NCBI GenBank assembly: GCA_002413745.1
Contig: DHXP01000079.1
Span: 1 to 36,534 of the forward strand
DNA: 36,534 bases
Direction: 5' to 3'
Origin: Flavobacterium sp. UBA5153
Lineage (GTDB): Bacteria; Bacteroidota; Bacteroidia; Flavobacteriales; Flavobacteriaceae
The notes under the pieces were generated by a model. That model saw only the letters and a list, made by a program, of their open reading frames with translations, had not been told where the DNA came from and did not search any database. The position numbers and the translations under genes are program-made. Shown here piece by piece: positions 13,469-35,687 of the stretch. Numbering within the stretch: position 1 is the stretch's first letter; each line of letters starts with the position of its first letter.

Positions 13469-14302
13469 TTAATCAACCACCGGAACAGCAGTCTTCAATA
13501 TTTTTTGGGACAGGTATTTTGCCACACCATCATTGTCATTGGTAGAAATCACCTCTAAATGGGAAAGTTTACTTTTCAAGCTTTCGACGGCATTTTCCAT
13601 AATCAAGGCTTTCCCAGTGGCAATAAGCATTTTTTCGTCATTGAATCCGTCTCCAAAAGATAGGGTTTCCTCGAAAGTAAAATTCTCTTTTTCCAAAATT
13701 TTCAAAATTGCTACACTTTTATCCACGGATTTATCCATAAATTCAAGACAAAACGGAAGACTAAAGGCGTGACTAAAATCATCCGAATGGTCTACCAGAA
13801 TTCTGTCCCTTAATTCCACCAATTTTTGATGACTATCGTGTGTGAAAAACAATTTTATGGCACTCAAATCTTCAACAAATTTAAAATCGACTATTTCGGG
13901 CGGATAGTTTATAACAGTTTGAAAACTATTCAACTTTTTATTTTCCTTATTCGTTTGCCAAACTTCCTCTTTGAATAATACCGTCGTAAACTCTGGATCA
14001 ATATCTAAATCTAAAACCGATTTTATGGCATCGTTTTTTATGTCGAAAGAATATAGCAATTCTTTTGTAGGCGAATGAATCCGCGCTCCATTCGATGTCA
14101 CCAAATAAACCGGACAACCCAAACTTTCAACAATAGGCAAAGCATCAAGATGATGACGACCCGTGGCGACAATTATTAAATAATTTTCTTTATGAAGTTG
14201 TTGAAAAACGGTTTTGGTGTATTCGGAAATTTGATGTTTTGTATTGAGTAAAGTGCCGTCTAAATCGCTTATTACAACTTTAATTTTTTCTTTTTTAACC
14301 AT
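13469..14302 (-). CDS. Cof-type HAD-IIB hydrolase
   Basis: A 277-aa cytosolic phosphatase of the haloacid dehalogenase superfamily, subfamily IIB. Motif I is ISDLDGTLLNT with nucleophile D13 and acid/base D15. Motif II lies near VATGRHH. K195 is a candidate for motif III. Motif IV is FGDGFNDEKML with D218 and D222. The cap domain lies between motifs II and III. Family members act on sugar phosphates, FMN or pyridoxal phosphate; the substrate here is unknown. It has its own promoter and is followed on the same strand by the S9 peptidase gene after 71 bp, so some co-transcription is possible. Confidence 0.9.
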   Translation of the reverse strand: MVKKEKIKVVISDLDGTLLNTKHQISEYTKTVFQQLHKENYLIIVATGRHHLDALPIVESLGCPVYLVTSNGARIHSPTKELLYSFDIKNDAIKSVLDLDIDPEFTTVLFKEEVWQTNKENKKLNSFQTVINYPPEIVDFKFVEDLSAIKLFFTHDSHQKLVELRDRILVDHSDDFSHAFSLPFCLEFMDKSVDKSVAILKILEKENFTFEETLSFGDGFNDEKMLIATGKALIMENAVESLKSKLSHLEVISTNDNDGVAKYLSQKILKTAVPVVD

Positions 14303-24020: not shown

Positions 24021-24127
24021 AATAAAAAAATCAAAACATAAAGTAATAATTGTCAGATGTTTATTATATTTTAATTGAAAAAAAATGAGCCAACATCATT
24101 TTAAAATCGATACTTATCTAGATTTAT

Positions 24128-24135
24128 TACCTTTG
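24128..24135 (+). promoter_or_regulatory. Probable -7 box of mnmE
   Basis: TACCTTTG matches TAnnTTTG exactly and predicts a start near 24142, 12 nt before the ATG at 24154. It lies downstream of the in-frame ATG at 24085, which argues that the 24085 start is not used. Confidence 0.5.
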
Positions 24136-24153
24136 CAATCTAGAACAAAAAAT

Positions 24154-25542
24154 ATGTTACACAACGATTCCATAGTAGCACTCGCCACGCCTTCAGGTGC
24201 AGGGGCAATTGCCATAATTCGAATTTCAGGAGAGGATGCCATTACTATCGGAAATTCTGTTTTTCAATCCATCAAAGGAAAAGATTTAACCCAACAAAAA
24301 TCCCACACTTTGCATTTGGGCCATATTGTGGACGCTACTAAAACGCTTGACGAAGTTTTGGTTTCTATTTTCAAAGATCCGCATTCGTACACTGGCGAAA
24401 ATACTATCGAAATTTCCTGTCACGGTTCCACTTATATTCAGCAGCAAATTATTCAACTATTGCTTCGTAAAGGGTGCCGAATGGCAAATCCGGGTGAATT
24501 TACCCTGAGAGCCTTTCTAAACGGCAAACTCGATTTGTCACAAGCCGAAGCCGTTGCCGATTTAATTTCGTCGGACAACGAAGCTTCGCACCAAATTGCG
24601 ATGCAACAAATGCGTGGCGGTTTCTCTAACGAAATAGCTAAATTACGTGAAGAATTATTAAATTTTGCTTCCTTGATTGAATTAGAATTAGACTTTGCCG
24701 AAGAAGATGTAGAATTTGCCGATAGAACACAATTTCACGAATTATTGAACCGAATCGAGTTTGTTTTGAAACGCTTGATTGATTCATTTGCGGTTGGAAA
24801 CGTCATCAAAAACGGAATTCCTGTCGCCATTGTGGGTGAGCCTAATGTGGGGAAATCAACTTTATTGAACGCTTTATTAAACGAGGAACGTGCAATAGTT
24901 TCAGAAATTGCCGGAACAACACGGGACACTATTGAAGATGAATTGGTTATTGGCGGCATTGGATTTCGATTTATCGACACGGCCGGAATTCGAGATACCC
25001 AAGATGTTATAGAAAATATTGGTATCCGAAAAACTTTCGAAAAAATAGAACAAGCCCAAGTTGTGGTCTTTCTTTTTGACAGTTCCGAGTTCAAAGTTTC
25101 AGGTTTAAAATTGAAAGTGGAATTGGAGAAAATACGGAATCAGTTTCCTTTAAAGCCTCTAATTATTATTGGAAATAAAGCTGATAAATTGGATGAAGCC
25201 GAAATCCAAAATCTAAAATCCAAAATCCCAAATATTCTGCTTCTTTCGGCAAAAAAAAATATTGGCGTTGAGGATTTAAAAAACCAACTGCTTTCATTTG
25301 TAAATACGGGTGCGTTGCGCAATAACGAAACCATTGTCACCAACACGCGTCATTATGATTCCTTATTGAAAGCTTTGGAAGCGATTCAAAAAGTGAAATT
25401 CGGACTGCAAACCGATCTGCCTAGCGACTTGATGGCGATAGACATTAAAGAAGCTTTGTATCATTTTGGAATGATTACCGGACAAGTGACCAATGATGAG
25501 CTTTTAGGTAACATTTTCGCTAATTTCTGCATCGGGAAGTAA
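24154..25542 (+). CDS. mnmE: tRNA-modifying GTPase MnmE
   Basis: 462 aa from the ATG at 24154; an in-frame ATG at 24085 would add 23 residues unlike the family and upstream of a probable -7 box, so it is not used. MnmE with MnmG adds the carboxymethylaminomethyl group to wobble uridine 34 of tRNAs. The start MLHNDSIVALATPSGAGAIA is the formyl-THF-binding domain; the inserted G domain shows GEPNVGKST, DTAG and GNKADKLD; the C-terminal end is the catalytic FCIGK with the conserved Cys. The last 18 bp are repeated at 31901-31918, where an integrated element ends; the gene remains intact because the element carries its own copy of these codons. Confidence 0.96.
   Translation: MLHNDSIVALATPSGAGAIAIIRISGEDAITIGNSVFQSIKGKDLTQQKSHTLHLGHIVDATKTLDEVLVSIFKDPHSYTGENTIEISCHGSTYIQQQIIQLLLRKGCRMANPGEFTLRAFLNGKLDLSQAEAVADLISSDNEASHQIAMQQMRGGFSNEIAKLREELLNFASLIELELDFAEEDVEFADRTQFHELLNRIEFVLKRLIDSFAVGNVIKNGIPVAIVGEPNVGKSTLLNALLNEERAIVSEIAGTTRDTIEDELVIGGIGFRFIDTAGIRDTQDVIENIGIRKTFEKIEQAQVVVFLFDSSEFKVSGLKLKVELEKIRNQFPLKPLIIIGNKADKLDEAEIQNLKSKIPNILLLSAKKNIGVEDLKNQLLSFVNTGALRNNETIVTNTRHYDSLLKALEAIQKVKFGLQTDLPSDLMAIDIKEALYHFGMITGQVTNDELLGNIFANFCIGK
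25525..25542 (+). other. attL: left 18-bp core at the mnmE 3' end
   Basis: TTCTGCATCGGGAAGTAA, the last six codons of mnmE (FCIGK-stop). It matches TTCTGCATCGGAAAGTAA at 31901-31918 at 17 of 18 positions; the single difference, GGG versus GGA, is silent. Flanking sequence on either side does not match, as expected for a site-specific integration core. Confidence 0.88.
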
Positions 25543-25622
25543 TCTACATTATTAAACCATCATATTTCTACGTTCCAAGTGCTATAAACAAAGGGATTTC
25601 TATGTATTGATAGATGACTTTG

Positions 25623-25665
25623 TTTACCCTTATTTACCCTATTCGTGCTACTAATCGTGTTACTA
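25623..25665 (+). repeat. Direct repeats near attL, candidate integrase/excisionase arm sites
   Basis: tttaccct occurs at 25623-25630 and 25633-25640 (10-bp period). It is followed by tcgtgctacta at 25643-25653 and tcgtgttacta at 25655-25665 (12-bp period, one difference). The spacing is close to one DNA turn, suiting side-by-side protein binding. The rest of 25543-25806 holds no gene; further TTAC or GTAAC motifs occur at 25739 and near 25783. Similar TTACTAAT occurs upstream of the integrase and beside attR. Confidence 0.5.
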
Positions 25666-25806
25666 TGTTTTGTAAATCGATATTTTTTATGAATTTTATG
25701 ATACCATAGTCCGTAAAGTGGCTTCTACATTGAGTTGTTACTTACAGATAGCGTTTTAGTCGATAAACAAAGGAAAATCATATAGTAACAAAGACAGTAA
25801 GTAATA

Positions 25807-26139
25807 ATGAGTCATTTACAAATCAAAAGAATTTGTGTAGTCTGTAAAGAAGAATTTACAGCAAAAAGTAGTAAAGGTATCTATTGTTCTTCAATATGTT
25901 TTAAGAGAAATTATAGAAAACTACAAAAAGAAAATACGGTTGTAATTCCAAAGGTAAAACTAATTATTACCAAAGAGAATTTACAGAATAAACATTATTT
26001 ATCCGTTAAAGATGCAGTTGTATTCTTTGAAATTTCAGAGGTAACTTTACGTAGAAAAATCAAAGAGAATAATTTGAAATATGTTAGTTTGAAAAATAGA
26101 TTTTTGTTTTTGAAGTCAGATTTAGAGAGAGTTATTTAA
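25807..26139 (+). CDS. Small zinc-ribbon plus helix-turn-helix protein
   Basis: 110 aa. The N-terminal part has a C-X2-C...C-X3-C arrangement (C10, C13, C27, C31) in RICVVCKEEFT...YCSSIC, a likely zinc ribbon. The C-terminal half (about 62-110) reads YLSVKDAVVFFEISEVTLRR followed by FLKSDLERVI, the helix-turn-helix-wing pattern of MerR/excisionase-type DNA binders. It is the first gene inside the element, next to attL and its repeats, so an accessory recombination role (excision factor) or a regulator is possible. It converges on the Rep-like gene with only 10 bp between stops. I do not recognise a named family for the fusion. Confidence 0.7.
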   Translation: MSHLQIKRICVVCKEEFTAKSSKGIYCSSICFKRNYRKLQKENTVVIPKVKLIITKENLQNKHYLSVKDAVVFFEISEVTLRRKIKENNLKYVSLKNRFLFLKSDLERVI

Positions 26140-26149
26140 AATATAATAA

Positions 26150-27133
26150 TCAATTATCATAGTCTTCATCATCATAATTTTCATCGTAATAGTAATCTTC
26201 ATCAAAATCATCTTCGTCATCTTTAGTTTTCTTCTTACCCTTTTTTCTAATAGGTAAATCAGAAAACTTTATTACTCCTCTTTTTTTTTCTTCCCTTTTG
26301 TTAAAATCATCTTCTTTAAAGATATTATTTTCACTTTGTTTAATAGTATATAATTCTGAAATATCTACGGCTTCCAAAGGAGGTATTTTGATTTCTTCTT
26401 CTGTTTTAAAATCAGCTTTTTTGGAGATACTTTTTTTAACTATTTCTTCAGTTTTTAACTCTGAATTTTGGTTCAGCTTATTTTGTTCGCCTTCAAAAAT
26501 ATTGTCAAAATCATCAATAGAATTCTCTGCATTTCTACTAAATTCAACAGTTCTAATAACTTTTTGGTTTTTATAATATCCATAATTTACTTCATAAACT
26601 TTTAAAAAATCGTACTCAAATAGTAGTTTTGTCCAATTGGTAATACTACCAACACTTACATTCATTATTTTTGAGGTCGTTTCTCTCTTTTTTATATATC
26701 CATTTGGCGTTTTACTCAAAGTATTATATTCTCCCCATAGTAATTTTGCACCCGTTGTCAATTCTGAATGATTAAAAATCTCAAAAGGAAGAATACACTC
26801 ACTTACATATTTCGATTGTTTTTCTTCGTTGATTGTTAAAATTTCTACACTCTTTAATTTATCAGTTAAACGATGTATTCTTTTATCTTCATCATCTTTT
26901 ACTAAATATCCTTTTTTAATTAAACTTTTTCTACAAAGTCCGACGATATTTGAGTGTACTGATAATAATTCTCCAATATCTACATTGGTATAAATATTAT
27001 AACCTTTTTTTGAATTATAAGTATAATCCAATGATAAAATTAGTTTTTCGTTGTCTGACAACTCTCTGTTTGTTAGTATTTTAGGAGATACTTTTATATT
27101 AATCCTTTTGTTAAATTTCACTTGTTTTTCCAT
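26150..27133 (-). CDS. Rep-like protein with two winged-helix-like repeats and an acidic tail
   Basis: 327 aa. Two similar segments, about 18-85 (LTNRELSDNEKLILSLDYTYN...NIYTNVDIGELLSVHSNIVG) and about 115-185 (FNHSELTTGAKLLWGEYNTLS...IKKRETTSKIMNVSVGSITN), each look like a replication-initiator or HTH_36-type winged helix. A charged linker follows, and the last ~30 residues are extremely acidic (DEDDFDEDYYYDENYDDEDY). The gene starts beside the long noncoding region with iteron-like repeats, the layout of iteron-controlled replicons, so replication initiation is the favoured guess. A repressor role is also possible. A TAGATTTG on the minus strand at 27188-27195 may be its -7 box. Confidence 0.65.
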   Translation of the reverse strand: MEKQVKFNKRINIKVSPKILTNRELSDNEKLILSLDYTYNSKKGYNIYTNVDIGELLSVHSNIVGLCRKSLIKKGYLVKDDEDKRIHRLTDKLKSVEILTINEEKQSKYVSECILPFEIFNHSELTTGAKLLWGEYNTLSKTPNGYIKKRETTSKIMNVSVGSITNWTKLLFEYDFLKVYEVNYGYYKNQKVIRTVEFSRNAENSIDDFDNIFEGEQNKLNQNSELKTEEIVKKSISKKADFKTEEEIKIPPLEAVDISELYTIKQSENNIFKEDDFNKREEKKRGVIKFSDLPIRKKGKKKTKDDEDDFDEDYYYDENYDDEDYDN

Positions 27134-27203
27134 AAAAAATGACTACTTTGTACTACTACAAATGGTTATACCACTTATTCAAAGGTGCAAATCTATAAAA
27201 ATA

Positions 27204-27288
27204 CCACTAATTTTGTTCTTCTACCTCACTTATTTTAATTTACTACCACACCAATTTTGTACTTCTTTCTCACCAATTTTGGTCTTAT
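27204..27288. repeat. Three iteron-like imperfect direct repeats
   Basis: ccactaattttgttcttct at 27204-27222, acaccaattttgtacttct at 27248-27266 and caccaattttggtcttat at 27271-27288 share the core CAC(C/T)AATTTTGnnCTT, all in the same direction. They lie 70-155 bp upstream of the Rep-like start codon and next to its possible -7 box, where a Rep protein could bind for initiation or autorepression. Confidence 0.5.
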
Positions 27289-27502
27289 ATATAATAATCT
27301 ATTCAATAAGACTAAATAAATAGATTAAAAAATAAAACAATTAGTCAAACGATTAACATCGTTACTCTTTAATTTTTTCTACTACTTCCCTTTGAATGAA
27401 CTACTACTCAAAATATCGTTTTTGAATATCCTCTTTTATTCTACTACACTACTACTTTTGTATAAATTATAGATTATTCTTTTTCCTTTGAAAATAATTA
27501 CC

Positions 27503-27557
27503 ATTAATCTCTTACTGCTATTATCACTTCCACTAATAACAGCAGTAAGAGATTAAT
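27503..27557. repeat. Large stem-loop, 22-bp arms
   Basis: Left arm 27503-27524 and right arm 27536-27557 are complementary at 21 of 22 positions (core TTAATCTCTTACTGCT), with an 11-nt loop cacttccacta. It has no T tract and lies more than 350 bp from any gene end, so it does not look like a terminator. It could be an origin hairpin or a recombination/transfer site. Confidence 0.6.
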
Positions 27558-27937
27558 ACTAATAAAAAATGTAAGTATTTAATATTCAAATACTATTGAT
27601 TATTCCTGCTTTGAATAATTGTTTACTTCACAAAAAAGAGACAAATATTCCTTTGAATGAAAATAACAATATTGTACATCGTAAAATTGCTTTTTGGTAT
27701 AAAGTATCAATTAATAGATTAAAATTGTTGTAACTTATTAAAAACGGTATTGTAGTTAATTTTAAACGATTAAATAAAAACTAAAATCAAATACAGTAAA
27801 AAAATATTAAAAAATAAAGGTTGATTCACAACAACTTAAAACCTTTGAAATATCGGTTATATTCTGTGTTAAGAAAGTAATCTATGGTTTATGGAAAATA
27901 CAAAGTAGGTTATTTTATAGGGTTTACTGTTGTTTGT

Positions 27938-27976
27938 GTTACTAATTAGGGGGGACTTTACACCATAATTAGTAAC
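27938..27976 (+). promoter_or_regulatory. Inverted repeat with a G6 loop directly upstream of the integrase gene
   Basis: gttactaatta at 27938-27948 and taattagtaac at 27966-27976 are perfect complements (11 bp) around a 17-nt loop that starts with six G residues. It ends 16 bp before the integrase ATG at 27993, so an RNA hairpin here would shield the ribosome site, and as DNA it could be an operator. The half site GTTACTAAT recurs near both ends of the element. Confidence 0.55.
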
Positions 27977-27992
27977 CAAAAAAGAGTAAACG

Positions 27993-29132
27993 ATGAAAAT
28001 CTATTTATCAGTACGTAAAGGACAACAATCCAAAAAGAGTTTAGAAAAGGGGAAACCAAAAATGAATAGTTTGTTTTTGATGTACCATGATGAAGAAAAT
28101 AAAAAAAGGAACTATGAGTTTTTGAGACTTTACCTCTACGATAAACCGAAAAACTTTTTAGAAAAAGAACACAACAAAGAAACCCAGTTATTAGCTGAAT
28201 CGATAAGAGCTCAAAAAATATTGGATTTACAAAGTAGGAAGCACGGATTTGTAAGTAGTGTGAGCGGTAAAATAGGTTTTTTAGAATATTTTAAACAAAT
28301 ATCAGATAAAAAATGTGAAGTAAATGGAACTTGGGGAGCGTGGTTAAGTACTTACAAACATCTAAACAGCTTTTGCAAAGGAAAGGATATTCAACTTTCC
28401 AAAATAGATGATTTCTTTTTGGAGAATTTTAAAATATATCTATTGACAAATAAAATATCATCACACGGTGGAAAATTATCTCAGAACTCTGCATTATCAT
28501 ACTTCAATAAAGTGAAAACAGCTTTGAAAGAAGCTTACCAAAGTAAGATGATTTGTGAAAATCCGTCTATGAGAGTAAAAAGTATTAAAGAGAAAGAAAC
28601 CAGTAGACAATATTTAACTTTGGGGGAACTGCAAATATTAGTTAAAACGGACTGCGATTATCCAATAATGAAAGAAGCATTTGTTTTTAGTGTATTAACT
28701 GGATTGAGGTTTTCAGACATAAAATCATTACGATGGAAAAACATCACTTTTGACAAACTAAATGGTTATATGCTCAAGTTTACTCAACAAAAAACTAAAG
28801 GAGTAGAACATCTTCCGATAAGTGAACAAGCGGTTAAAAATCTAGGGGAACGAAAAAAGGATGATGATTTAATCTTTGAAGATTTAATCTACAGTGCCTA
28901 CCACAACAAAATACTACATAAGTGGATCTCTAATGCTGGAATTGATAAACATATTACATTTCACTGCGCTCGACATAGTTTTGCCACACTACAATTAACA
29001 ATGGATACCGACATCTATACAGTCAGTAAATTATTAGGACACCGCCATTTGAGAACGACTGAAATCTACGCAAAAGTGATAGATAAAAAGAAAATTGACG
29101 CAGTAGCAAATATGCCTGATTTGTACTTATAA
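27993..29132 (+). CDS. Tyrosine-type site-specific integrase
   Basis: 379 aa, the usual size for Bacteroidetes mobile-element integrases. An N-terminal arm-binding segment (about 1-85, with MNSLFLMYHDEENKKRNYEFL) is followed by a SAM-like core-binding domain (about 93-185) and the catalytic domain (about 205-375). Active-site residues: R239 in LTGLRFSDIKSLRW, a Lys in the QQKTKG beta-hairpin (about 267-269), H324 and R327 in FHCARHSFAT, H350 in LLGHRHLRTTEIY and nucleophile Y359. All are present, so it should be active. It most likely recognises the 18-bp mnmE core. The inverted repeat just upstream probably controls it. Confidence 0.95.
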   Translation: MKIYLSVRKGQQSKKSLEKGKPKMNSLFLMYHDEENKKRNYEFLRLYLYDKPKNFLEKEHNKETQLLAESIRAQKILDLQSRKHGFVSSVSGKIGFLEYFKQISDKKCEVNGTWGAWLSTYKHLNSFCKGKDIQLSKIDDFFLENFKIYLLTNKISSHGGKLSQNSALSYFNKVKTALKEAYQSKMICENPSMRVKSIKEKETSRQYLTLGELQILVKTDCDYPIMKEAFVFSVLTGLRFSDIKSLRWKNITFDKLNGYMLKFTQQKTKGVEHLPISEQAVKNLGERKKDDDLIFEDLIYSAYHNKILHKWISNAGIDKHITFHCARHSFATLQLTMDTDIYTVSKLLGHRHLRTTEIYAKVIDKKKIDAVANMPDLYL

Positions 29133-29257
29133 GAGTATTTTTTATAATAGAAAAATCGTTCCTTTTATCTCATCTATTACTACTGTAATTATTTGAAAGA
29201 TAATATTTAATCGAAAAATTGAAAACGAAAAGATTAAACATTAAAAATCAATTAATT

Positions 29258-29530
29258 ATGGTAGCTAATAGTACACCAAAAGAAGTAGTAGAACTAATTA
29301 AAATAAGAGGTTTTGCCAACACATTAGAAGCATCAATTTATTTAGGAAAGAGCATTCATTATATAAGAAGACTGTCGAGGGATAAAGTCTTAATCTCATA
29401 TAAACCAAACGGAAAATGTATCTATTTTAAAATTGAAGATTTAGACTGCTTTCTATTGAGTAATAAACGACTTAACCGAGAAAACATAACACAAAAAGCG
29501 GCTAAATATTTATTCAATAATAGGAAATAA
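29258..29530 (+). CDS. Excisionase-like helix-turn-helix protein
   Basis: 90 aa from the ATG at 29258; a TTG start at 29219 could add 13 basic residues but is less likely. The region FANTLEASIYLGKSIHYIRRLSRDKVLISYKPNGKCIYFKIEDL is the MerR-like HTH of excisionase/DNA-binding domain proteins, in which the KIEDL helix follows a short wing. It directly follows the integrase on the same strand, the usual place for a recombination directionality factor in Bacteroidetes elements. There is a second HTH protein at the attL end, so which of the two drives excision is open. Confidence 0.75.
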   Translation: MVANSTPKEVVELIKIRGFANTLEASIYLGKSIHYIRRLSRDKVLISYKPNGKCIYFKIEDLDCFLLSNKRLNRENITQKAAKYLFNNRK

Positions 29531-29603
29531 CAAACTCTTTATTCTGATTGGTGCTTTAACATCTTTTACTATAATAGTCTGAATAATTTATGAATTTAAC
29601 ACA

Positions 29604-29843
29604 TTACAGTGGACTATCTGGAAGAAAATCCTTTGGGGAACATTCAAATATTTCTGCTAATTTGTTGATATGTGATAGATTATACTTAGCTCTGGATTTT
29701 GAACTCTCAATATCTCCAATAAAACCGATAGAAAGATTCAAAGCATAGGACAACTCTTTTTGAGATATATTTTTCTCTAACCTCATTCTTCTCACTGTAT
29801 CGATAACATACTGCTCTATTGGTTCTAAACTTGGATTGTCCAT
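29604..29843 (-). CDS. XRE-family transcriptional regulator
   Basis: 79 aa, almost entirely one Cro/C1-type HTH (about 13-73): RRMRLEKNISQKELSYALNLSIGFIGDIESSKSRA with the usual QKELS start of the second helix, and a C-terminal AEIFECSPKDFLPD. It is divergent from the exported-protein gene at 29943. The 100-bp gap holds a near-perfect 20-bp operator overlapping where the -33 boxes of both genes would be. I infer that it represses its own gene and the cargo, with release of repression on an unknown signal. Confidence 0.9.
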   Translation of the reverse strand: MDNPSLEPIEQYVIDTVRRMRLEKNISQKELSYALNLSIGFIGDIESSKSRAKYNLSHINKLAEIFECSPKDFLPDSPL

Positions 29844-29887
29844 AAATAAATCATTTGGACAAAGTGAGTTAATGCCTAAAAAATATT

Positions 29888-29907
29888 CACTCGTACATAT
29901 ACGAGTG
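29888..29907. promoter_or_regulatory. Operator palindrome between the XRE gene and the cargo
   Basis: CACTCGTACATATACGAGTG: 8-bp arms CACTCGTA and TACGAGTG with a 4-bp CATA centre, perfect dyad symmetry. Rightward, a GATATTTG at 29922-29929 (one base off TAnnTTTG) is the likely -7 box of the 29943 gene; leftward, TCACTTTG around 29860 is a weaker -7 candidate for the regulator. The palindrome falls about 20 bp from each, in the -33 zone of both. Confidence 0.7.
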
Positions 29908-29942
29908 TTTGAAAAAATGTTGATATTTGTAAAAAAAACATT

Positions 29943-30983
29943 ATGAAGTATATTTTAATCTTAACATTTAGTTTGTGTTTTACAAACTCAATACAATCTC
30001 AAGAATTCGGTAATATGGGGAATATTGAGCACTTTTTTAACTTAAACAAAAAAGAACTCGATTCAACAATAAAAGACAATGGCTATCATTTTAACCCCAA
30101 GAATAGCTTGAATGGAATTTACAGTTATATAAAAAAATCAAACGACAAACGTTTTGAATATATAGTGAACTTTAAATATAAAGGAAATACTTTGACAAGT
30201 TTTAGTTGGGATGATGATTTGGCACATGGAAGTTTTATTGTTAATGATATTGGAAATGATGATTATAAAGTTAATGAAAGTAAAACAGATGATTCATTAG
30301 GAATAATTTATTTAGAATCGTTAGATAAGGATTTAGATGTAATAATCTTTAAAACAATACCACAATTACAAAAAGGAATGATATCATTCCATCTATTTAA
30401 ACGTTCAGTTGCATATCCTATTTCAATCAAAAAAAATAGTTCAAAAAAACAAATTGAGAAAGTAGAAAAAATAGATTCGAAAAAAATAATCGAAGAGAAA
30501 AAGAAAGAAGGAATTCCTAATAACACAAAGAAAAATATTGTGAAAAACGGTTTTAATATTCCTATAAAATCTAATATGGAAGAAGTTCCTGGACCAAAAA
30601 CAGAAGAAGATAGTAAACCAAAAATTTATGACAAAAATTTAGATTATATTGTTTTTCAAAGTTCAGCAGTTGTATGGAAAAAACCAAACGAGGGAACATC
30701 TGTTGACAAATCTATATGGACATTAACATTAACCCCTAAAGATTTTCTGATGAAAAGTATGAATTATGAAAAAAAATTCAAAATTACGAATGTTAAATAT
30801 GATGAAGATTTCCAAATGCAAAAATTTGAATTAGCAGACGAAACTACTGCACATACATTTAACTTACTCATATCATATACTTTGGAAACAAAAAGTTATA
30901 ATGTAATAGTTCAATCTATTAATTATAAGGAAGAATACCAATTTCAAGGAGTTGTAGGGAAAGAAAAGATATTTCAAAAATAA
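29943..30983 (+). CDS. Exported protein of unknown function, element cargo
   Basis: 346 aa. Signal peptide 1-20 (MKYILILTFSLCFTNSIQSQ). The mature N-terminal half (about 21-155) has alternating short strands (FEYIVNFKYKGNTLTSFSWDDD) suggestive of a beta-rich domain. It is followed by a charged K/E linker (about 160-215) and a second beta-rich domain (about 225-346, IVFQSSAVVWKKPNEG). I recognise neither. There are no cysteine pairs, lipobox or sorting tail, so it is predicted to be periplasmic. It is the first gene controlled by the XRE operator. No homology to known toxins or immunity proteins is evident by eye. Confidence 0.7.
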   Translation: MKYILILTFSLCFTNSIQSQEFGNMGNIEHFFNLNKKELDSTIKDNGYHFNPKNSLNGIYSYIKKSNDKRFEYIVNFKYKGNTLTSFSWDDDLAHGSFIVNDIGNDDYKVNESKTDDSLGIIYLESLDKDLDVIIFKTIPQLQKGMISFHLFKRSVAYPISIKKNSSKKQIEKVEKIDSKKIIEEKKKEGIPNNTKKNIVKNGFNIPIKSNMEEVPGPKTEEDSKPKIYDKNLDYIVFQSSAVVWKKPNEGTSVDKSIWTLTLTPKDFLMKSMNYEKKFKITNVKYDEDFQMQKFELADETTAHTFNLLISYTLETKSYNVIVQSINYKEEYQFQGVVGKEKIFQK

Positions 30984-31012
30984 ATAATATTGTATTTTTA
31001 ATTCATAAACCC

Positions 31013-31035
31013 TTTGTAATTCAGATTATTACAAA
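31013..31035. promoter_or_regulatory. Inverted repeat before the 31051 gene
   Basis: tttgtaat at 31013-31020 and attacaaa at 31028-31035 are perfect complements with a 7-nt centre, ending 15 bp before the ATG at 31051. It could be a binding site or a small RNA hairpin covering the ribosome site. No T run follows, so a terminator is unlikely. Confidence 0.4.
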
Positions 31036-31050
31036 CACACTCTTTAAAAT

Positions 31051-31803
31051 ATGAACCTGTTAAAACATATTCAAAGACTAATAAATTATGGGAGAAGTGT
31101 TAAAGAATCAGCAAACGAAAACATTTGTAAAAACCAACAAATAAAGAAGTTAACTATTCCTCAAATACACGATTTATCCGCTATTATTCAGAGAAATCAA
31201 GCTTTAGTAATAAATGGAGGTTGCAGATTTGATTCTTTGACTGAAACCGATAATATAATTTTAAAAAAATATGGAGTAGATTTAGATCAATTATATTTCG
31301 AAAGTAAGAATACCATATTTACTTCTTTTCATTTTGGTTTAATTTCTGATTCTTTGAAAGAGTTAGAATTTGTCGATAAACTTACGTACAACAATTTATA
31401 CGTTCATATTTCCAAAGGGAGGTATATTCCGCTCTCTCAAAAAGAGATTGCTGTTATAAACCATATTAGAACACAATCTTTATCACATTTGCAATCTGTT
31501 GAAAATAAAATCTTCCAAGATGTCAATCAAATACTTCCAGATACATCAAGAGCAACTCAAGAAACCTTCATTAGAGAAGAAGTTGAAAAAGGGTATCGTG
31601 ACGGCAAGACCACAAGACAAATAGCGAGTGAGATAGCCCATAAAACAGGAGATTGGAGTAGCGATTTTGATAAAACAGTACAGTTTTTGTCCACTCACAT
31701 TGAATACAAAGAAATAAACTCAAATCTAATAATGAACAAAACTACTGTAAAACTTCGTCCAAAAATTAGAGCTTTCATTAATGGTAAAGAAGTGTGGGTA
31801 TAA
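31051..31803 (+). CDS. Protein resembling phage Mu F-type head morphogenesis proteins, element cargo
   Basis: 250 aa, cytosolic. LTETDNIILKKYGVDLDQLY, then FTSFHFGLISDSLKEL, then a central helical part and FIREEVEKGYRDGKTTRQIASEIAHKTGDWSSDFDKTVQF resemble the N-terminal part of Mu gpF / minor capsid head morphogenesis proteins as I remember them, where a GkTtrqIA..igh.tgdW.rD...ia.TE pattern recurs. The usual following arginine- or histidine-rich segment is missing and the protein stops after ~35 more residues. This is recall, not a search. No other capsid, portal or terminase gene lies nearby, so if the match is real it is an orphan. It lies 67 bp after the exported cargo gene. Confidence 0.45.
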   Translation: MNLLKHIQRLINYGRSVKESANENICKNQQIKKLTIPQIHDLSAIIQRNQALVINGGCRFDSLTETDNIILKKYGVDLDQLYFESKNTIFTSFHFGLISDSLKELEFVDKLTYNNLYVHISKGRYIPLSQKEIAVINHIRTQSLSHLQSVENKIFQDVNQILPDTSRATQETFIREEVEKGYRDGKTTRQIASEIAHKTGDWSSDFDKTVQFLSTHIEYKEINSNLIMNKTTVKLRPKIRAFINGKEVWV

Positions 31804-31863
31804 TAGAAAAACAGGTTTGAATCGAAATTTGTAAAAGTGTGTTTTTTACTAATCAGGATACTA

Positions 31864-31871
31864 TATCTTTG
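31864..31871 (+). promoter_or_regulatory. Possible outward promoter -7 box at the right end of the element
   Basis: TATCTTTG, an exact TAnnTTTG match, 30 bp inside attR and pointing into the flanking genes (YdjM-like remnant, then the 2H phosphoesterase). No clear -33 TTTG. In the circular form it would read across the joined att site toward the zinc-ribbon/HTH gene. Confidence 0.35.
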
Positions 31872-31900
31872 TAATCTCACTAAAACAAAGAAATTACATA

Positions 31901-31918
31901 TTCTGCATCGGAAAGTAA
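31901..31918 (+). other. attR: right 18-bp core
   Basis: TTCTGCATCGGAAAGTAA, which still reads FCIGK-stop in frame though it is cut off from mnmE. It differs from the attL copy by one base. The YdjM-like remnant starts 9 bp after it, consistent with its being the gene that stood downstream of mnmE before insertion. Confidence 0.88.
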
Positions 31919-31926
31919 GCTGATAA

Positions 31927-32019
31927 ATGAATTCTTTAACCCAAATCGTTTTAGGAATTACCGTAGCCGAATTATATGCCGGCAATGAACTTAAAAACAG
32001 AAGATTTTTAAACGATTAA
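31927..32019 (+). pseudogene. Truncated YdjM-like metal-dependent hydrolase remnant
   Basis: 30 codons: MNSLTQIVLGITVAELYAGN then ELKNRRFLND and stop. The first ~25 residues match the N-terminus I know from YdjM/DUF457-type membrane metal-dependent hydrolases (MNSLTQIVLGAAVGE...GNKIGNRA), but the rest of the expected few hundred residues is gone. It probably results from a deletion after attR. It could still be translated as a short peptide. Confidence 0.65.
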
Positions 32020-32046: not shown

Positions 32047-32607
32047 ATGGAAAAGCATTATTCGATTGTAATCTACCCATCGGAGGCCATTATTGATTTG
32101 GTTAAATCCATGAAAGAAGGATTGGCCAAGGAAGTGGGTTGGTTCCACAGTAAAAATTCTGTGGGTCATATCACCATTTGTCTATTCAAAGCTACTGATG
32201 AAGCAATTGAAAATATTAAAAATCAATTAAGCAGCGTGTGTGACACTTTGGCGCCGGTTGAAGTTTGTATGGATGAATTTGGTTCCTATCCCAATGGCGC
32301 GTTTTTTATTTCGCCCGACCAAGATTCTAAAAGCAGTCTGATGCCCATAATGAAACGGATCCAGGAATCGCTTCATAACCTGAATATGCAAAAAAGTGAT
32401 GATCCGCATCTGTCCATTGCAAGAAGGTTAACTCCTCAAAAGCTGGAAATAGCTAAAAGTTTGTTTACCTTAATAGACGTGCATTTTTTGTGTGACAGTA
32501 TTGTTTTGCGAAAGTTTGATGAGAATATAAAACAGTTTGCCGTAACCGATACGTTTAAATTCAAAGGTAATCCACAACCGGATCTAATACAGCGAATGCT
32601 TTTTTAG
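32047..32607 (+). CDS. 2'-5' RNA ligase family protein (2H phosphoesterase)
   Basis: A 186-aa cytosolic protein. The two H-x-[ST] motifs that define the 2H superfamily are present: H41-I-T43 in GHITICLF and H121-L-S123 in DPHLSIARRL. Members act on 2',5' or cyclic phosphodiester bonds in RNA or nucleotides (LigT/ThpR, CPDase); the exact substrate here is unknown. It is not part of a visible operon; the nearest upstream genes are the YdjM-like remnant and the element. About 275 bp of AT-rich noncoding DNA follow before the next gene, in which I see no clear feature. Confidence 0.88.
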   Translation: MEKHYSIVIYPSEAIIDLVKSMKEGLAKEVGWFHSKNSVGHITICLFKATDEAIENIKNQLSSVCDTLAPVEVCMDEFGSYPNGAFFISPDQDSKSSLMPIMKRIQESLHNLNMQKSDDPHLSIARRLTPQKLEIAKSLFTLIDVHFLCDSIVLRKFDENIKQFAVTDTFKFKGNPQPDLIQRMLF

Positions 32608-32882
32608 TTGTCAATTTCCCTAAATGCAACAAACAACACTTTAGAAAATATACCATTAAAATCCGATTTTGGAATGATCAACCTCATACCCATTTGAATG
32701 AAAGCAAATAAGCGAACATCTTACTCAAAATCAAAAAAACTTCTTATAAACAAGAATTTTTTATTTGAAAAATTGTTTTAAAGATAACATAAGTTGCATT
32801 TATATGTGTTTTTTTTTGCCTAAAATTGTAACTCGTTAAAAAACATTTTTTGACTAAAAAAATTTCTATAATCCTAAAATTT

Positions 32883-35687
32883 ATGAAAACGGTTTTACAA
32901 TTACTACTATTATCCCTTTTGACCGCTTGCAGTTTTAAAAATATGCCAACAAATAAACCCTTGTGGATTATTTCGGCACCTAGCGGAAATCAAATAACGA
33001 AAATTGATAAAAACGGGAAAACCGTGATTCCCAATGGTCGATTTATAACTCCCGGAGGAAATAATATTATGACTGCGCCACACCCTTATGGATTGACCTT
33101 GAGTCCAAACGGGAATGTTGCCGTTACCGCTAATTCTGGTACCAATCCCCTATCGATTACAATCATAAAAGATATTTTATCAAAAAATCCAGAGGTACGA
33201 CAAATTCCTCCAGGCCCAGCAACTGATAAGGGCGTTTTGGCTTCGGTATTTATGGGATTAGCCATATCTCCCGACAATCAAACCGTTTATGTTTCCGGCG
33301 GACAAACCAACAAAATTTATTTGTTTGACGTGAATTCCGGTGCCAAAAAGGATTCTATAGATTGTTCTTCTCATTCTGAAAATACCGATTATTCCCACGG
33401 ATACATTGGCGATATGAAGATGTCAAAAGATGGAAAAACACTTTATGCAGTAGACCAAATTGGTTTCAGAATGGTTGTTTTGGACACTGAAACAAAAATG
33501 CTCAAATATTCCGTACCGGTGGGTCGTTATCCGTTTGGGATTTGTTTGTCGCCAGACGAAAAAAAGGCCTATGTTGCCAATGTGGGAATGTTTGAATATT
33601 CATACATAAAAGACGGAAAAGGAAAAGATGCCAAGATTAAGCCCATCGCTTATCCCGCTTTTGCCTACGGTTCGAAAGAAATGGAAAATGGTATCGAAAA
33701 TGATTCAGTTTCTATTAAAGGTTTGGGCGAAATGAATGCTATCGAAGCTTTTTCAGTTTTTGCAATTAATCTTGAAAATTTACAGCAACCCAAAGTGGTT
33801 GCAAAAATTAAAACCGGACATTTGGTTGGAGCATTGGTCGAAGGCATTCCTGCCGTGGGCGGTTCTAGCCCCAACTCAATTGTCGCCACAAATGAATATG
33901 TGTTTGTGAGTAATGGAACCAATGATAACATTTCAGTGATTTCTATCGAAAAAGATTCCGTTGTCAATACCATTTCTCTTAAACCAGATGATCGAATGAA
34001 GCAATTTCGGGGAGTTATCCCTTTTGGATTGGCTTTAAGTCCCGACCAAAAACGATTATATGTTGCTGAATCCGGAATAAATGCCATTGCAGTTATCAAT
34101 GTATCTGACCAAAAAGTCTTAGGGCATATTCCTGCCGGATGGTTTCCTTCGAAAATTGAGGTAAGCAAGGATGGAAAAAAACTGATTATTGCCAATGCCA
34201 AAGGTTTTGGGAGTGGCCCTAACGGAGGAGCTTCATATAAACTGGGTGCAGATGGCAGTTATATTGGATCGTTAATGAAAGGAACAGTACAAATAGTCGA
34301 CATCCCAAAAGATAAGGACTTAGATATGTTTACTAAAAAAGTCGTTTCAAATAACTTTCAATTTACCAATGCTGCTGATCCAATTTTTAAAAGCCGGCAG
34401 AATAATCCAATACCGCTTTATCCGGGAGAAAAAGAAAGTCCGATAAAACACATCGTATTTATTTCGAAGGAAAACAGAACGTATGATGAAATCTTCGGTC
34501 AGATAAAAAAAGGGAACGGAGACCCAACTATAGCACGATATGGCAGGAATGCCTCCTTTTCGAACAAAAAGAAAACAGACTCCGTTTCAAACGCAACAGT
34601 TATGCCCAACCACTTGGCTTTGGCAAGACAATTCAGCATTTCAGACAATTTTTATGTTGATTCAGATGTCTCCGCCGATGGTCATCGATGGCTGACCAAT
34701 ACCTATCCCAACGAATGGTGCGAAACCGCCACGGCCGCCAGTTATGGAGGAAACAGAAAATTTAAGGAAGGCTCAAAAGCTCCGGGTGTTTTTGCCATGA
34801 ACGGTGCCGCAGGAGCCATTTACCCCGAAGATTACAATGAGGCCGGTTCTTTATGGGATCACTTGGGACGCCATAATATAAATTTCTATAATTTTGGTTT
34901 TAGCATCATGTTTGAACCCGCGCTTTACAAACCGGAATATAAATATACCGGCATCAAACAATTTGTCAATTTTCCAATGCCAAAACCTCTATTTGATCGG
35001 ACTTCTAAAATGTATCCAACCTTCAATATGGAAATACCGGATCAATTCAGAATTAGCCAATTTATTAAAGAGTTTAATGCGAAATGGATTAACGGACAAG
35101 AAGTTATGCCTCCGTTTACAACCGTTATTATTCCGAATGATCACGGAGCCGAAGATCGTCCAGATACCGAATATCCGTTCAGGGAAAGTTATATGGCCGA
35201 CAATGATTTGGCCGTGGGACGTATTGTAGAATTCCTCTCAAAAACCCCTTATTGGAAAAATATGCTGATTGTAATTACCGAAGATGATGCACAAAACGGC
35301 GTAGACCATATTGATGCGCACAGAAGTGTGCTTATGCTAATTTCTCCTTGGATAAAAAGAGATTATGTAGGTCATGTGCACTATAGTTTTGGTAGTTTGT
35401 TTAAATCGTTTTGGAATATTTTGGATATGCCTTACTTAAATCAATATGATGCTGGTGCGACAGATTTAAGCGACCTTTTCGACACCACTCCAAACTATAC
35501 ACCTTACAATGCTGTAGAAATTGATTCCAGAATCTTTGATCCTCAAAAAGCGCTAGCTCCATTTGATGAAAAATTCGATTGGAAATCAGTGAAAGGATCT
35601 ACAAAAATTGATGATGAGGAAGATATGTTTCAGGAAAGCAAAGAACAGGATAAAAACCGTTTAGAAAACAGGGAAAAGAAAAAATAG
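32883..35687 (+). CDS. Lipoprotein: YncE-like beta-propeller fused to an alkaline-phosphatase-like phosphoesterase
   Basis: 934 aa from the ATG at 32883; a TTG at 32850 would only add residues before the signal peptide. MKTVLQLLLLSLLTAC is a lipoprotein signal with lipobox Cys16, so the protein is probably anchored on the periplasmic side of a membrane or exported. Residues about 25-490 are YVTN/YncE propeller blades (PHPYGLTLSPNGNVAVTANS, YPFGICLSPDEKKAYVANVG, IPFGLALSPDQKRLYVAESG). From about 520 a phosphoesterase domain begins with ENRTYDEIFGQ and includes SDNFYVDSDVSADGHRW and ITEDDAQNGVDHIDAHRS, the metal/phosphate-site motifs of the phospholipase C / acid phosphatase family. It probably cleaves phosphate esters for phosphate scavenging; the propeller's ligand is unknown. 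The C-terminus is highly charged. Confidence 0.9.
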   Translation: MKTVLQLLLLSLLTACSFKNMPTNKPLWIISAPSGNQITKIDKNGKTVIPNGRFITPGGNNIMTAPHPYGLTLSPNGNVAVTANSGTNPLSITIIKDILSKNPEVRQIPPGPATDKGVLASVFMGLAISPDNQTVYVSGGQTNKIYLFDVNSGAKKDSIDCSSHSENTDYSHGYIGDMKMSKDGKTLYAVDQIGFRMVVLDTETKMLKYSVPVGRYPFGICLSPDEKKAYVANVGMFEYSYIKDGKGKDAKIKPIAYPAFAYGSKEMENGIENDSVSIKGLGEMNAIEAFSVFAINLENLQQPKVVAKIKTGHLVGALVEGIPAVGGSSPNSIVATNEYVFVSNGTNDNISVISIEKDSVVNTISLKPDDRMKQFRGVIPFGLALSPDQKRLYVAESGINAIAVINVSDQKVLGHIPAGWFPSKIEVSKDGKKLIIANAKGFGSGPNGGASYKLGADGSYIGSLMKGTVQIVDIPKDKDLDMFTKKVVSNNFQFTNAADPIFKSRQNNPIPLYPGEKESPIKHIVFISKENRTYDEIFGQIKKGNGDPTIARYGRNASFSNKKKTDSVSNATVMPNHLALARQFSISDNFYVDSDVSADGHRWLTNTYPNEWCETATAASYGGNRKFKEGSKAPGVFAMNGAAGAIYPEDYNEAGSLWDHLGRHNINFYNFGFSIMFEPALYKPEYKYTGIKQFVNFPMPKPLFDRTSKMYPTFNMEIPDQFRISQFIKEFNAKWINGQEVMPPFTTVIIPNDHGAEDRPDTEYPFRESYMADNDLAVGRIVEFLSKTPYWKNMLIVITEDDAQNGVDHIDAHRSVLMLISPWIKRDYVGHVHYSFGSLFKSFWNILDMPYLNQYDAGATDLSDLFDTTPNYTPYNAVEIDSRIFDPQKALAPFDEKFDWKSVKGSTKIDDEEDMFQESKEQDKNRLENREKKK

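Follow-up and report, generated by a model that had tools for sequence, protein, structure and literature searches.

The stretch of DNA analysed here, hereafter called the window, comprises 36,534 nucleotides (nt) of a 66.7-kb contig (DHXP01000079.1) of Flavobacterium sp. UBA5153. Immediately at the end of its mnmE gene lies a 6.4-kb segment (25525-31918, core to core) that is flanked by two copies of an 18-bp attachment (att) core and encodes an integrase. Very probably, this segment is a site-specific integrative element that was inserted by its own tyrosine integrase between a core that it carried and the end of mnmE. Genomes of relatives and loci are designated by G and L numbers, respectively. 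The features defining the site are:

24085..25542, plus strand: target gene mnmE, which functions in tRNA modification (NF003661 2.3e-118, TIGR00450 4.5e-118), with a frame that is complete through the attL core
25525..25542, plus strand: attL core TTCTGCATCGGGAAGTAA, forming the final codons of mnmE (FCIGK-stop), its last bases being thought element-derived
27993..29132, plus strand: tyrosine integrase of 379 amino acids (aa) with Arm-DNA-bind_5, SAM_5 and Phage_integrase domains (PF00589 8.1e-21, PF13102, PF17293)
31901..31918, plus strand: attR core TTCTGCATCGGAAAGTAA, which probably represents the old end of mnmE

The two cores lie on the same strand and are equal in 17 of 18 bases, base 12 being the sole difference. 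Searching the window for the core with up to three mismatches returned these two sites only, whereas shuffled sequences gave 0.06 matches on average and reached two matches in 0 of 100 cases. A search of the whole genome with up to two mismatches revealed one extra site, which has two mismatches and resides on another contig. Thus, a preliminary description of this DNA had placed the 18-bp copies correctly at 25525 and 31901, and the shuffles exclude chance. That description also took both copies to encode the C-terminus of MnmE, which is true of the left copy inside mnmE, but the right copy, while spelling FCIGK-stop, is joined to no mnmE frame. Its account of an AT-rich interval with an integrase proved accurate: the core-to-core interval has a G+C content of 27.3% as compared to 35.9% for the remaining window, and the integrase is complete, carrying R239, K267, H324, R327, H350 and Y359, which we take to be the catalytic set (RKHRHY) of tyrosine recombinases.

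The arrangement recurs in other genomes. G585, which belongs to another species, harbours a sister element of 12.1 kb (L371:542-12702) at the same site with both ends recognisable. The two elements have in common similar ends, the integrase, the excisionase-like helix-turn-helix (HTH) protein of the HTH_17 type (Xis), the repressor region and a Cys-pair/HTH_17 gene, whereas the module on the side of the replication-initiator-like (Rep-like) gene differs, a module that varies between sister elements. At the nucleotide level, the match amounts to 91.5% over window positions 27441-29938 and to 84% over 31844-31919 up to the core, as compared to 83.9% for the stretch comprising mnmE and the left end; the integrases match by 96% and the Xis proteins by 92%, MnmE by 92% over residues 23-485. 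That part of the backbone is closer between the species than mnmE would fit horizontal movement. Further relatives are an 8.2-kb element between two cores in G030, which encodes an integrase with 86% identity and a DUF4365 protein, and an 11.3-kb element next to mnmE in G177 (integrase 83%). Both the left and the right ends of the window, G030 and G177 elements align next to the cores. Pairs of cores with the same LigT or YdjM flank genes beyond them were also found at distances of 19.0 kb in G598, 65.6 kb in G615, 12.2 kb in G038 and 9.4 kb in G019.

To the right of the attR core, the window continues with the following genes:

31927..32019, plus strand: YdjM-like gene fragment of 30 codons, named after the preliminary description; the fragment has no Pfam match
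32047..32607, plus strand: LigT / 2'-5' RNA ligase-like gene (PF13563 2.2e-13)
32850..35687, plus strand: YncE-like / phosphoesterase-like gene, named by resemblance

The mnmE site is unoccupied in the relatives G165 (L114) and G654 (L369), where the gene order differs from that in the window. Both genomes contain one exact core; no match of this integrase occurs on the mnmE contig of G165, or in the fetched 9-kb stretch of G654. In G165, 89% similarity to the window gene at 32850-35687 starts ~165 bp past the mnmE stop codon, and in G654 LigT, whose frame is broken, follows mnmE at a distance of 2.1 kb. The LigT gene is found past a right core in G019, G038, G585 and G615, while the YdjM-like gene, which has its full length of 331 aa in G585 and G178 (L356, L357), comes after the right core in G585 and G598. 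The direct mnmE-YdjM junction with a single core that had been anticipated was absent from the relatives opened, in which the YncE-like gene (G165) or LigT (G654) is near mnmE. The flank has evidently been changing, since the gene order of the single-core relatives differs, LigT is broken in G654 and the YdjM-like gene is truncated in the window. Other candidates for empty sites were discarded: genomes from a search with the right flank (398 genomes) had the core before YdjM away from mnmE, or YdjM without a core, and G652 has one core on the mnmE contig and one elsewhere, but its left end resembles element left ends. Relatives retaining both copies and the same genes between them in the absence of the integrase, which the preliminary description had named as counter-evidence, were not found. 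G019 (L121) carries identical 18-bp cores at 14079 and 4679 with LigT beyond as in the window; its interval contains different genes, has host-like G+C content and gives no match of this integrase family. This stretch might be an integrase-less or decayed element. In sum, insertion into the last mnmE codons with preservation of the reading frame is strongly supported by the single-core relatives, the G585 sister element, the two-core loci with other contents and the group of integrases at the mnmE side, which is described next.

The core pattern was scanned in 299 genomes of the same genus; by hand count of the resulting table, at least one copy is present in 280 and at least two in 96 of them, giving 123 extra copies, which need not all be at mnmE. 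A reversed control pattern matched in 28 genomes (30 matches, counted by eye). Relatives of the integrase, including those away from mnmE, occur in 114 of the 299 genomes at E<=1e-40 and in 51 of 296 phylum-wide genomes at E<=1e-60. Loci were then ranked with an alignment of 14 integrases adjoining a core, a choice of query that favours the mnmE-core kind. Among the best 80 of at least 570 confirmed loci from the genome collection, all assigned to Bacteroidota by title except one 'uncultured bacterium', the integrase lies directly 3' of mnmE in 70; four loci have the core only, one has no room and five have neither. Two of these five do hold mnmE elements in other layouts, the integrase being inverted in L168 and another integrase copy adjoining mnmE in L239. 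A second core is located inside the fetched flank in seven of the 80. Among the best 80 of 196 loci from viral contigs, mnmE is on the upstream side in 11, the core alone in 29, no room in 34 and neither in six. Three of the core-only contigs were opened. L270 has viral-family genes ahead of its core, which is what an attP would show, whereas all matches scanned in L280 and L297 are downstream, and the single upstream open reading frame (ORF) scanned in each gave none.

In an integrase tree of 119 rows, which remained of 209 after removal of rows at least 80% alike, 113 fall into one supported group that includes all 89 mnmE rows. Duplicates (L034-L063), rows shorter than 300 aa and rows without upstream room had been dropped beforehand, except for outgroups from the own genome. 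Along this tree the mnmE label changes 13 times as compared to 26.8 times in shuffles, with 0 of 500 shuffles as low. The tree is a quick one supported by Shimodaira-Hasegawa-like approximate likelihood ratio tests (SH-aLRT) only, with a long-branch warning in the outgroup and a label 'other' that partly stands for rows of uncertain side, and its rooting is too poor to call mnmE ancestral. Eight integrases at the dnaK side form one nested branch together with one row of uncertain side, and the sole der-side row kept belongs to the same larger group. In other Flavobacterium genomes, sister integrases of 416-424 aa are positioned 3' of dnaK (L144, L145, L147, L150, L151), and the 3' end of der is directly adjoined by others that measure 401-405 aa (L152, L155). 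This suggests that sister integrases may have been retargeted to the ends of these other conserved genes; the short flanks fetched showed neither a second dnaK tail nor a second der tail, so that these targets are read from adjacency. Overall, related elements throughout Bacteroidota seem to insert commonly at the end of mnmE.

Between its cores, the window element contains seven ORFs, which were scanned against Pfam, NCBIfam and PHROGs. Apart from the integrase, its anatomy is as follows:

25543..25806: left arm, aligned with the left ends of G030 and G177
25584-25594 and 25763-25773: candidate arm-type sites ATAAACAAAGG, repeats with predicted binding
25618-25626: candidate arm-type site CTTTGTTTA, inverted, likewise a repeat with predicted binding
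25807..26139, plus strand: Cys-pair and HTH_17 protein of 110 aa (PF12728 5.3e-6)
26150..27133, minus strand: replication-initiator-like protein (weak match, phrog_19658 7e-4)
27134..27992: AT-rich stretch without an ORF of at least 100 aa in the ORF list
29258..29530, plus strand: excisionase-like HTH_17 protein (PF12728 0.002, TIGR01764 0.0033, both under the curated cut-offs)
29604..29843, minus strand: Cro/C1-type HTH repressor-like protein (PF13443 3.4e-8)
29943..30983, plus strand: cargo 1, 346 aa, with an apparent signal peptide by eye and no confident family match
31051..31803, plus strand: cargo 2, 250 aa, homologue of a 313-aa phage minor-head-like protein minus ~90 middle residues
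31844..31900: conserved right end of the element (31844-31919 being 84% identical to G585), a block common to G030 and G177

The left arm holds repeated AAACAAAG-like motifs. The adjacent 110-aa Cys-pair/HTH_17 gene has a tblastn match in 30 of 40 same-genus loci (L064-L103) and in many loci of the phylum, and its product is a candidate directionality or integrase-partner factor. For the excisionase-like gene, which the ORF list starts at 29219, a start at 29258 agrees with the homologues. The 860-bp stretch preceding the integrase gene contains a 28-nt inverted repeat (27497-27524 / 27536-27563, 89%), possibly a replication origin or terminator. None of the seven ORFs matched a relaxase, coupling protein, type IV secretion system (T4SS) or other transfer family in these scans.

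The two genes preceding the right end differ in their relationships. Cargo 1 has no relative in the viral contigs or plasmids, and cargo 2 none in 377 other same-genus genomes. Over residues 34-214, cargo 2 is 60% and 54% identical to 313-aa proteins from the viral contigs L380 and L381, respectively, and 49% identical to L382, an ORF of 311-312 aa in Chryseobacterium phage MA9V-3. Its C-terminus matches again, as 11 of the last 15 residues agree with L380, the ~90 residues in between being missing. This missing middle contains CxxC and HPYCRC motifs (a MuF-like Cys/His part) and covers most of the stretch in L381 that weakly resembles a minor head PHROG (0.001) and Phage_Mu_F (0.079), neither of which was matched by the L380 homologue. 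A terminase-like ORF and an endolysin are encoded near the homologue in L381, whereas in MA9V-3 the homologue and its neighbouring genes are annotated as hypothetical. Judged by these alignments, cargo 2 would be a part-deleted phage minor-head-like protein, and it could perhaps act as a phage-blocking decoy that impedes head assembly.

In the sister elements, the cargo is of another kind. G585 encodes a YobI-ATPase/Tmn NTPase (PF20693 2.8e-108; PADLOC Tmn 9.3e-71) together with proteins of 587 and 375 aa, and G177 likewise carries a Tmn-like NTPase (7.9e-78) along with a second protein, whose start by eye resembles the 587-aa protein of G585. The cargo of some related elements appears to resemble anti-phage defences. 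A prokaryotic Argonaute gene (PADLOC pAgo 4e-283; L188:17795-19906) was noticed in Seonamhaeicola algicola, at most 7 kb away from an integrase on the mnmE side; as the locus showed no right core, the gene is a candidate member of the element.

Elements of this type may also accumulate at the site. Three cores are present on contig C33 of G585 (23041, 35184 and 100924), and the same-strand core runs in G030, G157, G191 and G585 suggest tandem arrays of stacked elements. The run on contig C56 of G030 (L066, L104-L113, L064) has four cores on one strand (61834, 190449, 250009 and 258233) spread over ~196 kb, and also contains three integrase genes of the family plus an additional Cys-pair/HTH_17 gene.

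As to the position of strand exchange, the tails of the cores are informative. In SGI1-related elements, the last 9 bp of attL are those of the element's attP and the last 9 bp of attR are the old trmE end, according to the accessible part of PMC9035990. The attL tail of the window, GGGAAGTAA, recurs as the last 9 bp ahead of the similar left ends of G585 (L371) and G030 (L064), though not of that of G177. Its attR tail, GGAAAGTAA, is the most frequent one among the fetched mnmE loci that lack this integrase (8 of 19). Tails of the type GGAAAGTAR occur in 7 of 52 fetched same-genus loci with the integrase as compared to 11 of 19 without it (Fisher p 0.0004), a value that is descriptive because the samples are non-random, lineages are shared and L119, L120 and L127 among the 19 have element-like left ends. 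These tails would fit an attL tail contributed by the element and an attR tail representing the old mnmE end, as in SGI1-related elements.

These data are best read as evidence of an integrative, satellite-like element that replaces the final mnmE codons by its own. Strand exchange within the core would leave the element's own last codons (GGGAAGTAA) on mnmE as attL and displace the original tail (GGAAAGTAA) to the right end as attR, so that MnmE still ends with FCIGK-stop. Excision may be driven by one or both HTH_17 proteins, while the Cro-like protein would hold the element quiet and the Rep-like protein may replicate the excised circle. The two genes before the right end would represent exchangeable cargo, their place being taken in G585 by the Tmn/YobI-type NTPase and its partners. 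In this scheme we infer the activity of the element, the exact crossover, the roles of the HTH proteins, the satellite-like lifestyle and an anti-phage role of the cargo.

Several observations weigh against this reading. In this strain the element is known from its integrated sequence alone, its circle and attP being predictions. Within the window, a single variable base defines the crossover. The core tail follows the lineage of the elements imperfectly, as it varies among members of a single left-end lineage (L093, L095), and both cores of the G177 sister carry GGAAAATAA. Around the left end, similarity to G585 is no higher than it is for mnmE. Moreover, no relative opened joins mnmE directly to YdjM, the single-core relatives have a gene order unlike that of the window, with the LigT frame broken in G654 and YdjM truncated in the window, and G019 possesses two exact cores without this integrase family between them.

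Other origins of the locus were considered as well. The element could be a decayed prophage, its truncated head gene being a relic and the rest having been deleted between the att sites. The descent of cargo 2 from a phage minor-head-like gene, of which a part has been lost, points in this direction, as does the presence of the group's integrases in viral contigs with the core upstream (11 mnmE-side and 29 core-only among the best 80). We regard this origin as unlikely, given that sisters of 8-12 kb with similar ends and backbone hold other cargo at the position of the head gene, that no virion family was found among the part of the sister ORFs scanned, and that none of the listed ORFs in the window element is interrupted, cargo 2 keeping its frame and its C-terminal 15 residues. 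A conjugative or mobilisable element (ICE/IME; integrative and conjugative or integrative and mobilisable element) like SGI1 is suggested by the common target, by larger core-to-core stretches (65.6 kb in G615, 128.6 kb in G030) that could be conjugative, and by PriCT_2/DUF3987 and BT4734-like genes near the integrase in a Seonamhaeicola locus. Genes of these two kinds are frequent in Bacteroidota mobile elements. With no relaxase, coupling protein or T4SS family among the seven ORFs of the window element and with a size of 6.4 kb, which is very small, such an identity is quite improbable.

Still less credence can be given to the idea that the right core was left over from another element and that the present content came by a different route. 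Cores can indeed outlive or precede integrases, as the two identical cores 9.4 kb apart in G019 indicate, and core runs exist in G030, G157, G191 and G585. However, the right end of the window is similar to those of G585, G030 and G177 up to the core, so that left end, integrase and right end belong together, and this scenario is largely refuted. Finally, the two cores comprise only 18 bp with one mismatch and might be attributed to chance or to a local duplication of the mnmE tail; the probability of this is negligible, as 0 of 100 shuffles reached two matches even at three mismatches and the arrangement recurs in other species and genera, by which this explanation is refuted.

For the integrative element preferred here, the data have several implications. 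A target known in the literature searched from Gammaproteobacteria only is extended to a second phylum, and a group of integrases is described that keeps mostly to one protein gene. As two Tmn-like examples suggest, the mnmE tail is a place to seek anti-phage cargo in Bacteroidota, and the integrases might serve as tools for placing DNA behind a conserved gene that stays unbroken. A head-gene decoy, if true, would be a simple way of turning a phage part against phages. Going further, one may tentatively envisage the mnmE tail as the ancestral and still main site of a Bacteroidota-wide integrase clade serving temperate phages, small satellite-like elements and large islands, with stacked arrays and swapped anti-phage cargo, with cargo 2 as a decoy by which infecting or helper phages are poisoned in the assembly of their heads, and with dnaK and der as side branches; this is a speculative picture that we consider rather doubtful as a whole.

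Similarities to known systems exist at several levels. Phage satellites, as characterised in the available part of PMC13376191, are small and att-bounded, combining an integrase with a regulator and replication-like genes, a layout that the window element may share. The window element differs in its size of 6.4 kb, which is slightly below the 7-20 kb quoted in that part, in the weak match of its Rep-like protein (7e-4) and in possessing a part-deleted head-like gene; induction and packaging by a helper phage and interference with it are hinted at solely by the descent of cargo 2 from a gene of the phage head type. Integrases targeting dusA resemble the present group by description, as they form a family that is devoted to one conserved tRNA-modification gene and occurs in prophages and islands, but they use the 5' end of dusA (PMC4482086, accessible part), whereas the window integrase uses the 3' end of mnmE. 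In the literature searched, with element catalogues and subscription papers largely beyond reach, mnmE/trmE was described as a target of gammaproteobacterial islands only and no Bacteroidota element in mnmE was described; a Riemerella island sits in an Arg-tRNA gene, according to the available part of PMC6764341.

The closest correspondence concerns the SGI1-related islands. According to the portion of PMC9035990 at hand, SGI1, PGI1, PGI2, AGI1 and further clusters use, like the window element, an 18-bp att site over the last mnmE/trmE codons, with an attL tail from the element and a chromosomal attR tail, and they share with it an int and xis module as well as tandem arrays with other islands; an xis of the HTH_17 type in an SGI1-related island is mentioned in the accessible part of PMC7449626. 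They differ in having been reported in Gammaproteobacteria, as far as that portion of PMC9035990 extends, and in the backbone of 26-28 ORFs of the SGI1 family that is mobilised by IncA/IncC plasmids (PMC12217951, available part), nothing of which kind was matched in the window element: its seven internal ORFs gave no transfer family in the family scans, which are not a direct comparison with SGI1. Of the 5374 E. coli genomes that match mnmE, 776 have no place covering 80% of the 800-bp query; the final nine of the rows listed show a match that ends at most two bases from the mnmE end, and in three such loci that were opened, mnmE is followed by a gene annotated as injected effector. The window element resembles SGI1 at the level of the site, with no sign of SGI1-related membership and no transfer gene matched. 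The preliminary description had stated that SGI1 uses the same 18-bp target, and this is supported, as attL of the SGI1 cluster ends with GGGAAGTAA like that of the window in the part of PMC9035990 available, and the tail of E. coli K-12 agrees. The mnmE end of E. coli K-12, TTCTGTATTGGTAAGTAA, equals the attL core of the window in 15 of 18 bases, which illustrates how distant phyla can offer a single target in the codons of a conserved C-terminus. Convergence of unrelated elements on the tail of mnmE is plausible.

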